This document shows, piece by piece, positions 16,443 to 19,734 of a stretch of DNA of 53,624 nt. This DNA comes from Candidatus Auribacterota bacterium. Its GTDB lineage: Bacteria; Auribacterota; Tritonobacteria; UBA1439. The DNA is taken from positions 1-53,624 of the forward strand of contig JAPLCX010000067.1 of the NCBI GenBank assembly GCA_026392035.1, given 5' to 3'. Within the stretch, counting starts at the first letter, position 1. The number at the start of each line of letters is the position of its first letter. The notes under the pieces were generated by a model. That model did no database searches. It was not told where the DNA came from and saw only the letters and a list, made by a program, of their open reading frames with translations. The position numbers were made by a program, and so were the translations under genes.

Positions 16443-17173
16443 AAAAGGGGACAGGCTACTTTATACTTTGCAACACTTTCCCTTACAAGGTCTTCCGAGC
16501 GGCCTAAGCGTGGATTGCAATCTGAATCGCCTGGCCATCTGCTTTTGCCACAACGGCGCTCCAAACGGCGCCTGGCGATTCACGCTGCCGCGGAGTTTGT
16601 TCAGTTCGCCTCCTGTCATCGGCGTATCAACAAATCTCCCCCACTCGCCAGGCAATTTGACAGGCGGTTCGTCCGTAAGACAGCGTGGCTGCTCTCCGAT
16701 TGTCTCCTGATGAGAAGACCACGGCCATTCCCTCGCTGATCGCACAAGGCCCGCGCGCACGGGGTTGCCTTCGACATATCTAAGTACTACAATGAGATGA
16801 TTGTCTTCTTCAATTAAAAAGCTTTTGAACCGTCCCTGCCATATGTGGCCGCTGGATCCATAGTGCTTGTGATACCGTCTCACGTGGCTGGTCATGAGCC
16901 ATTGCATGAATTTGCTCAAGGCCTCGCGCACCGACTGCCTCACAACCATATGAAAGTGCGTCGGCATCACGCAATAGGCAAAGAGCTTGATCGGAAACTT
17001 TTTTTAGCCTCCTTCATTAGATTGATGAATGCTTTGTAATCTTGTTCCTTGTGAAAAATCTCCTGTCCCGCATTTCCACGGTTCAAGACACGATACACAA
17101 TGCCTTCACCTAACCCTCTGGCAATACGTGGCATCGGATTATCCTTTCATAATAAAGTAGCCTGTCCCCTTTT
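16443..17173 (-). mobile_element. RAYT element 1 with perfect 22-bp terminal inverted repeats
   Basis: Perfect 22-bp inverted repeats at 16443-16464 (core GGGGACAGGCTACTTTAT) and 17152-17173 bracket a tyrosine transposase of the REP-associated type. The repeats run into both neighbours. The right one encodes the last eight residues of the glycosyltransferase; the left one stops 2 bases short of the next gene's ATG. The transposase stop codon itself lies inside the left repeat. No target duplication is evident, as expected for the HUH single-strand mechanism. Confidence 0.85.
16461..17134 (-). pseudogene. REP-associated tyrosine transposase, frameshifted
   Basis: The first part starts at 17134 (MPRIARGLGEGIVYRVLNRG) and runs to a TGA at 16967-16969. 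The second frame continues with KLFAYCVMPTHFHMVV and ends at 16461. The HUH motif is THFH, and the catalytic tyrosine is probably in LRYVEGNPVRAG. The frame changes at a run of seven A (plus-strand T 16999-17005). Re-reading one base there joins the halves perfectly (AAAKF...), so either one A has been lost or the gene uses slippage at A AAA AAA G. Full length would be about 224 aa, normal for the family. RAYTs mobilise the small palindromes beside them. Confidence 0.85.
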
Positions 17174-18042: not shown

Positions 18043-18453
18043 ATGGGGGCGAACGAAGTTGAGGGGCAGGCTCGGAGGAAGTTCGAGCGGCTCACGACCG
18101 ATCTCCCCGCAACGCTCACCGTCGTTGGGGGGGATGCCGCCGGGGGCGGTGTGATATCTCTTGAGGGGAGGGTCCTCAACCTGAGCATGGACGGGGCGAG
18201 CATCGAGACCTACCGCTCTCAGGAGAGCGAGTTCCTCCGCGGCACGCAGCGCGTCACCGTCGAGATCGCGCTCCCGGCTCATTCGGAACCGCTCAGGTTT
18301 AGCGGCGAGGCGGTGTGGAGCACGGAAATCGCTGATCCGATGAAGCAGATGACCACACTGCGTTTCGGCGTTAAAATCCTGAAGGTCTCACCCCGGCACT
18401 CGGCATGGCTCGCATCATATATCAAAAAAGAACTCGAAGAAGCCTCTTCCTGA
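18043..18453 (+). CDS. PilZ domain protein
   Basis: A 136-aa single-domain protein. The c-di-GMP-binding PilZ signature is visible as RKFER (RxxxR, about residues 12-16) and NLSMDGAS (D/NxSxxG, about 50-56), followed by beta strands ending in a C-terminal helix (WLASYIKKELEEA). It probably binds cyclic di-GMP and acts on a partner protein. The start at 18043 follows AAGGAGA about 8 bases upstream; the frame extends upstream without a better site. No c-di-GMP synthase lies in the window. Confidence 0.88.
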   Translation: MGANEVEGQARRKFERLTTDLPATLTVVGGDAAGGGVISLEGRVLNLSMDGASIETYRSQESEFLRGTQRVTVEIALPAHSEPLRFSGEAVWSTEIADPMKQMTTLRFGVKILKVSPRHSAWLASYIKKELEEASS

Positions 18454-18711
18454 TCTGACACTCACTCACCTCATCCTCTCAATACTGCCCCCTCGCAACT
18501 TGCATGATATGGATGTTCTCTGGGGATCGCGTTTATCACATTCGGATACATCATCCTCCCGGCAACTGTACGTAATGAAAATTAAATTATTCTCTGGATT
18601 TTACAAAGGCCCTGTCGTAGAATGGCCTTCAGAAGAACCCGGAGAATCTCTTGCGTGAGAGAATCTCGAGCGGGGCAGTCACGAGCAACACACATATGAA
18701 GGGAGGGTACC
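18454..18711. other. Upstream region of the histone-fold gene
   Basis: A 258-base AT-richer gap. It must hold the promoter of the short gene at 18712. GGGAGGG lies 5-7 bases before the ATG. I see no other gene. Confidence 0.4.
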
Positions 18712-18888
18712 ATGGCTGATGTGCTCGTAGTGGCAAGTAAGGTGAAGGCGTACATCAAACAGAAGGGATGCAACACATCCGCGGAGAGCATCGAGGAGCT
18801 CAGCAAGCGCGTCCAGATGATTCTCGACATGGCGATCAAGCGCACGGGCGCGAATGGCCGCAAGACCGTGAAGGCGCAGGATCTTTAA
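18712..18888 (+). CDS. Bacterial histone-fold protein (58 aa)
   Basis: A 58-aa basic protein, MADVLVVASKVKAYIKQKG followed by CNTSAESIEELSKRV and ending GANGRKTVKAQDL. The ending matches the loop 2/helix 3 signature of archaeal histones (GRKTIKAEDI). The overall layout of a short helix 1, long helix 2 and short helix 3 with no tails matches the small bacterial histones exemplified by Bdellovibrio Bd0055. It probably dimerises and binds DNA as a nucleoid protein. A strong ribosome site (GGGAGGG) and a strong terminator (18912-18945) suggest a short, abundant transcript. Helix 1 carries SKVK, also typical. The alternative, a DUF1931-type protein, is longer and double-domain. Confidence 0.85.
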   Translation: MADVLVVASKVKAYIKQKGCNTSAESIEELSKRVQMILDMAIKRTGANGRKTVKAQDL

Positions 18889-18911
18889 TACGCGAAGCCG
18901 TTGGGTATGCA

Positions 18912-18945
18912 AGCGAGGTGATGGATCCCATCACCTCGCTTTTTT
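18912..18945 (+). terminator. Rho-independent terminator of the histone-fold gene
   Basis: A perfect 13-bp stem (AGCGAGGTGATGG / CCATCACCTCGCT) with a 3-nt loop, followed by TTTTT. It lies 23 bases after the stop. It overlaps the last codons and stop (18931-18933) of the convergent acetolactate decarboxylase gene. Confidence 0.9.
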
Positions 18946-19734
18946 ATCTTTCGCTTTTCCCGCGCGCTCCGCCGGCGATTGCGCATCCCTCCCAAGCCGC
19001 GCACGATAGAACTCGCCGCTGTGCGGCAACACCATGTGGAACTCTGAAGCACCGTCAATCGCGACCCGCGCATCCTCCAGCCGGCACTCGAGCACGTGCC
19101 CGCCCGCCCTCCTGTCCCTAGTGATAAAATGGAAATGGTAGGCGGGAACATTGATCCCCTTCATATACCCAGGGCAGCGCAACCCCACCAGCGTGCCTTC
19201 CGCGTTGTTGAACTCAAACGTGCGCTGCTTCTTGACCGCCTCGTCGAGCGGTGGATACGGCTTATCCTGGGCGGGAACGCTCCTCGTTTTGACATACGTA
19301 AAGCTCCCCTCTGCCCTGACCGCATAGAAAATATTCTCGGTTGGCAGAAGAGCGTCCAGGGCCCGCTCCAGCCCGTTGAGATCCAGTCTGCCCTTCAGGA
19401 CGGCCGTTCTGTCGGGTCTGAAGAATATCATGGCAGCAAATGGCACCTTCGCGTTGTCATCAGGAATGTGGACACTCCCATCCGCGCATACCTGGTAGAC
19501 GGTGCCATCGGTAACTACCATCTCCCCGTCGAGGCGATCGAAGGTCCCTATGCCGAAATCACCGTGCTCCTTCAACTCCCCGCAGGTGATCTCACCATCG
19601 TAGAGCCCCTGAAGCAATGCATCAATTGTGGACACCTGGTACACGACATCCGTGCGACGCGGAGGGCGGGCGCAACCGCAGAGCGCCTCCGAAACCATTA
19701 GTACATAGAGGATGAAATAGCGTTTCATGTTCAC
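18931..19734 (-). CDS. Exported acetolactate decarboxylase, predicted lipoprotein
   Basis: Acetolactate decarboxylase converts 2-acetolactate to acetoin. The 267-aa protein shows family landmarks: GTFDRLDGEMV with E71, TRSVPAQDKPY with R151, and the zinc ligands H200, H202 and H213 in YHFHFITRDRRAGGH, with the family's spacing. The N-terminus is a hydrophobic signal ending in LCGC, a plausible lipobox with C21 as the lipidated residue, so the enzyme is probably anchored outside the inner membrane. Some Bacillus homologues are also secreted. No acetolactate synthase is nearby. The C-terminal KAKDKKAR tail overlaps the terminator of the convergent gene. The start may be residue 1 or 3. Confidence 0.88.
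   Translation of the reverse strand: MNMKRYFILYVLMVSEALCGCARPPRRTDVVYQVSTIDALLQGLYDGEITCGELKEHGDFGIGTFDRLDGEMVVTDGTVYQVCADGSVHIPDDNAKVPFAAMIFFRPDRTAVLKGRLDLNGLERALDALLPTENIFYAVRAEGSFTYVKTRSVPAQDKPYPPLDEAVKKQRTFEFNNAEGTLVGLRCPGYMKGINVPAYHFHFITRDRRAGGHVLECRLEDARVAIDGASEFHMVLPHSGEFYRARLGRDAQSPAERAGKAKDKKAR

Follow-up and report, generated by a model that had tools for sequence, protein, structure and literature searches.

A tailless bacterial histone of Candidatus Auribacterota, most likely of the face-to-face type

Does a 58-codon gene on a contig of Candidatus Auribacterota encode a true histone and, if so, what kind of histone is it? The window – the whole stretch of DNA analysed here – is 53,624 nucleotides long (GenBank assembly GCA_026392035.1, contig JAPLCX010000067.1), and an earlier note made from its sequence alone proposed that it carries a short, strongly terminated gene for a histone-fold protein of the Bd0055 type. 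Bacterial histones have been described in several phyla (PMC11390915, PMC10627809), and are thus less rare than that note had stated. Among them, the face-to-face (FtF) histones, which are ring tetramers, are classed apart from the 'bacterial dimers' (PMC11390915). The features of the locus are these:

18698..18706, + strand: ribosome binding site AAGGGAGGG, ~5 nt 5' of the ATG (direct reading)
18712..18888, + strand: histone gene, 58 aa, alpha3 class, predicted FtF subtype, tailless (ORF, PDB matches, AF2, Foldseek, codon-position conservation)
18841..18885, + strand: C-terminal end of helix 2, loop 2 and helix 3 (alignment against residues in PMC12701072 and PMC11390915)
18911..18941, + strand: intrinsic terminator hairpin AAGCGAGGTGATGGATCCCATCACCTCGCTT, 14 bp stem, loop of 3, then a T run (folding; three relatives have a hairpin in the matching position)

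The open reading frame starts with ATG and its product, MADVLVVASKVKAYIKQKGCNTSAESIEELSKRVQMILDMAIKRTGANGRKTVKAQDL, ends in GRKTVKAQDL, exactly as first described. Because the frame is open for only about four codons upstream of the ATG (a 62-aa open frame), the histone has no hidden N-terminal tail. The predicted pI is 9.7 and the mass 6.3 kDa, with 11 lysines and arginines against 6 aspartates and glutamates. The good ribosome site and the strong terminator claimed for the gene are both borne out by the sequence, the RNA from 18885 to 18950 folding at -29.7 kcal/mol, where shuffled versions averaged -13.9 (z -5.6; 0/200 shuffles as good), and a T-rich stretch following the hairpin. A search of 18400-19000 gave no sigma-70-like promoter. 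The histones of three same-family relatives are 76-84% identical to the window protein; each of their genes is preceded by a purine-rich ribosome site and followed by a strong hairpin, and the nucleotide differences from the three fall largely at third codon positions (6/4/24, 5/7/22 and 10/8/23 by codon position). The gene is real and under coding constraint, that is, purifying selection.

Tail to tail with the histone gene lies a gene for alpha-acetolactate decarboxylase (PF03306, E 4e-85; 18931-19734, - strand), and both genes may use the symmetrical hairpin that separates them. A weak terminator-like hairpin inside the histone gene (18766-18780, - strand) is probably due to chance. Elsewhere in the window, a REP-associated transposase that is TnpA/RAYT-like by eye (16461-17134, - strand; MPRIARG...YRVLNRGN..., MMPTHFHMVV) is split over two frames, apparently by a frameshift.

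When the product was searched against PDB sequences, the best match was HLp of Leptospira perolatii (9qt0, E 4.4e-12), followed by HBb/Bd0055 of Bdellovibrio (8fvx, 3.9e-11; 8cmp, 4.3e-11) and HTkC of Thermococcus (9f2c, 1.5e-4), with the HLp and HBb matches spanning the full length of the protein. A histone profile search, which the earlier note had put forward as a check, did return the archaeal histone models of Pfam and NCBIfam, but below their cut-offs (PF00808, 16.1 vs 21.4 bits; NF043032, 18.3 vs 50); routine annotation may therefore miss this histone, and by these profiles it does not appear to be an archaeal nucleosomal histone of the HMf type. An AF2 single-chain model with 33 homologues aligned has a pLDDT of 93.2, compared with 68 from the single sequence alone. 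It predicts helices at residues 8-17 and 24-47 plus a three-residue helix at 55-57, and this three-helix arrangement, with helix 2 shortened and helix 3 of one turn, is that of the alpha3 histone fold. In a Foldseek search with the model, HLp ranked first (9qt0/9qt1; E 5.6e-5, TM 0.89, rmsd 1.0 A), with HBb (TM 0.88-0.91, 53% identity over the fold) and HTkC next, and the archaeal nucleosomal histones HMfA/B reached a TM of only ~0.63. The RxTxxxxD motif, which combines the R-D clamp with the DNA-binding threonine, is present as R50-K51-T52 ... D57.

The sub-threshold profile scores and the poor fold obtained from the single sequence might point to a spurious open reading frame, or to some small helical protein, unrelated to histones, in which GRKTVKAQD matches by chance. 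However, both are refuted by the full-length matches to two experimentally solved bacterial histones, the confident model with homologues and its close superposition on HLp, and the purifying selection on the gene, and we regard such a reading as extremely improbable. We conclude that the window protein is a genuine bacterial histone, belonging to the short alpha3 class, and its predicted structure bears out the histone fold first proposed.

The FtF profile is marked by R48, N52, R54, T56 and D61, and bacterial dimers are reported to lack R48 and N52 (PMC11390915); in HLp, R49, N53 and R55 make tetramer contacts (PMC12701072). All five FtF marks align with residues of the window protein (R44, N48, R50, T52 and D57), so that the absence of R48 and N52 characteristic of bacterial dimers is not found here, whereas HBb has Ser and Asp where the window protein has R44 and N48. 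Three of these residues, R44, N48 and R50, the putative tetramer contacts, are encoded by 18841..18885 together with the RKT DNA-binding loop and the R50-D57 clamp. A tree of these short proteins (58 columns, with many forks unresolved) groups the window protein with HLp and with the proteins of Auribacterota and Planctomycetota (94/94); HBb lies apart from this group and joins a Nitrospiria protein (96/94). Because the signature residues are all present, and because of this tree position, the window protein is most likely an FtF histone, a class formally defined by a ring tetramer that is confidently predicted or measured (PMC11390915), and not a dimer of the Bd0055 type. Of the original placement, the short alpha3 class and the clear homology to Bd0055 stand; Bd0055 as the closest subtype is not supported, the nearest solved relative being the tetrameric HLp.

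It is unlikely, in our view, that the protein is instead an HBb-like 'bacterial dimer', a stable dimer that binds and bends ~30 bp and does not form a tetramer. The strong match to HBb would fit such a protein, with 31/58 aligned residues identical (as high as the 27/56 for HLp), and so would the RKTxxxD loop and the HBb N-terminal start MADVLVVxSKVK, both of which are kept, as are eight of the ten main HBb DNA contacts (S9, K10, K12, K16, N21, S23, K51 and T52; the two that differ are T8->A8 and R57->Q56). The helix-1 lysines 11, 13 and 17 of HBb and its loop thus have counterparts in K10, K12, K16 and RKT, although these do not discriminate the dimer type because they are common to many FtF relatives. 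Nor are all HLp tetramer residues kept (S52->A47, T61->Q56, F63->L58), and N48 is not decisive, nor the FtF signature absolute, because HTkC, an archaeal proven tetramer, has E at that position. Conservation of ANGRKTVK among the fetched relatives is partly built in, this peptide having been one of the search seeds. Against a dimer stand the presence of both R44 and N48, the separate position of HBb in the tree, and the ranking of HLp as the closest match by fold and by sequence, albeit with small score differences from HBb.

This histone was found in 4/44 Auribacterota genomes, all in the family of the window genome (the 84% and 76% relatives come from the same-family genomes G004 and G001, as L011 and L012), and was not found, in this 44-genome search of the phylum, in two genomes of genus g4 of the same family. 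In all four carriers the neighbours of the histone are drawn from one series of genes (macro domain - UPF0047 - DUF362 - MurI - methyltransferase), not every one of which is present in each carrier; the locus is conserved, and the histone has thus been inherited in place. The PilZ gene that had been singled out as a notable neighbour was not found near the histone in relatives, and a functional link between the two was rejected on that ground. The acetolactate decarboxylase gene is common to the window and both histone-less g4 genomes, where it too is close to this locus, and was not found at the loci of the other carriers, a pattern compatible with the histone having been lost in g4. The histone gene occurs as a single copy, a second histone in the same genome having been rejected as an insignificant 33% match. 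A viral origin was likewise rejected, with no relative in an IMG/VR scan or in phage records and only insignificant PHROGs matches, and a plasmid origin yielded no match.

Two HU-family genes are present in the window genome, and the same holds for all five family members searched; Leptospira is reported to encode no HU. Because the genome keeps these genes, the histone is an addition to HU and not a replacement. We think it probable that the protein is a general, sequence-independent nucleoid protein, acting as an FtF tetramer that wraps ~60 bp beside HU. Two chains would form a histone handshake dimer, and two dimers would join at both ends into a ring tetramer via the C-terminus and via three residues (R44, N48 and R50) located where helix 2 ends and in loop 2. 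A basic and polar belt (S9, K10, K12, K16, N21-S23, K51-T52, K54) would grip the DNA backbone, and ~60 bp of DNA would wrap round the tetramer, as it does for HLp, which as a tetramer wraps about 60 bp (PMC12701072). Most backbone contacts of HLp and HBb are kept, in helix 1 (S9, K10, K12, K16), loop 1 (N21-S23) and loop 2 (K51-T52), and K54 stands at the place of HLp R59. The histone, which to judge by its homologues may be abundant, would work alongside the two HU-family proteins.

A narrow regulatory or structural role, for a weakly expressed histone-fold protein that is not a major chromatin component, seems improbable. The presence of HU in two copies and the absence of the histone from two same-family relatives would agree with it, and some prokaryotic histones (the ZZ and RdgC types) are weakly expressed (PMC11390915). 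Yet most general DNA-contact residues are conserved, the gene stands by itself as a unit of one gene, having a ribosome site and a terminator of its own, an organization reported as usual for architectural proteins, and the alpha3 histones that have been studied, HBb and the Leptospira histone, are abundant. An RKT loop with Lys, a trait of nucleosomal and dimer histones, is joined here, as judged from the alignment, to FtF tetramer residues. That a tailless FtF histone with such a loop, beside two HU proteins, holds DNA differently from HLp is a speculative and rather doubtful proposal; if true, the difference could be more stable wrapping, for example, or stacking of untailed rings.

The FtF tetramer kind is already known from Leptospira and many archaea. 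A text search of the literature that paired Auribacterota with histone turned up no paper, and the present gene probably takes the FtF histones into a little-studied bacterial phylum, Candidatus Auribacterota, for which the published accounts found do not list them. Auribacterota and Planctomycetota belong to the same PVC superphylum, within which the Auribacterota histone is tied to tailed Planctomycetota versions. Four carriers and two non-carriers in one family, with one locus and HU always in the genome, offer a natural comparison, which could ask what a bacterial histone contributes to a nucleoid already built on HU, and what function the N-terminal tail has.

Other histone-fold proteins occur in the phylum. 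In family f9 (genomes G013 and G031; L075:2996-3385, + strand, and L076 and L077) they are longer, with a C-terminal extension that looks helical, and one matches PF00125 (1.3e-5) and PF00808 (8.6e-5). Their genes lie directly downstream of a gene of ~380 aa, which has no Pfam match and looks by eye like topoisomerase VI subunit A. As far as these two genes go, the arrangement resembles the 'IHF histone' clusters of the literature, in which a topoisomerase VI-like gene is also present and for which Auribacterota is not named.

Among solved histones, HBb/Bd0055 of Bdellovibrio bacteriovorus (PDB 8CMP, 8FVX, 9EZZ, 9F0E), which is dimeric (PMC11317129), is a full-length homologue of the window protein with a similar N-terminus, an RKTV loop and most DNA-contact residues in common, but has one extra residue in loop 1 in addition to the Ser and Asp replacing R44 and N48. 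The Nitrospiria protein that groups with it (L022:5001-5177) has K and D at those two positions, and a histone of the bacterial-dimer type may, on this sequence, occur in a Nitrospirota genome, although this is a metagenome assembly in which contamination is possible. A Chlamydiia protein (L018:1500-1676) keeps the R and has S at the N48 position. HLp (PDB 9QT0-9QT2; PMC12701072) has, like the window protein, a short helix 2 and a short helix 3, and shares with it the R/N/R tetramer residues, the A-S-K motif of helix 1 and the R-D clamp; it differs in having six to seven disordered N-terminal residues, an extension that the window protein lacks, in its RTT as opposed to RKT loop, and in coming from a species reported to have no HU. 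The archaeal FtF histones (HTkC of Thermococcus kodakarensis, PDB 9F2C, and Lokiarchaeota homologues) belong to the same subclass by fold and signature, and like the window protein have short or absent N-terminal extensions; HTkC is identical to it at 23/56 residues, and those of Lokiarchaeota carry two inserted residues close to where helix 2 begins. The closest relatives outside the phylum are the FtF-like histones of Planctomycetota (L013-L016 and L025), which have the same signature residues and, in four of the five, 64-71% identity to the window protein. N-terminal tails are reported to be common in bacterial FtF histones (PMC11390915), and the Planctomycetota proteins carry Lys/Arg-rich ones (e.g. 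MAKKKAKKKGAARKSGKSR), whereas the four Auribacterota proteins are tailless.
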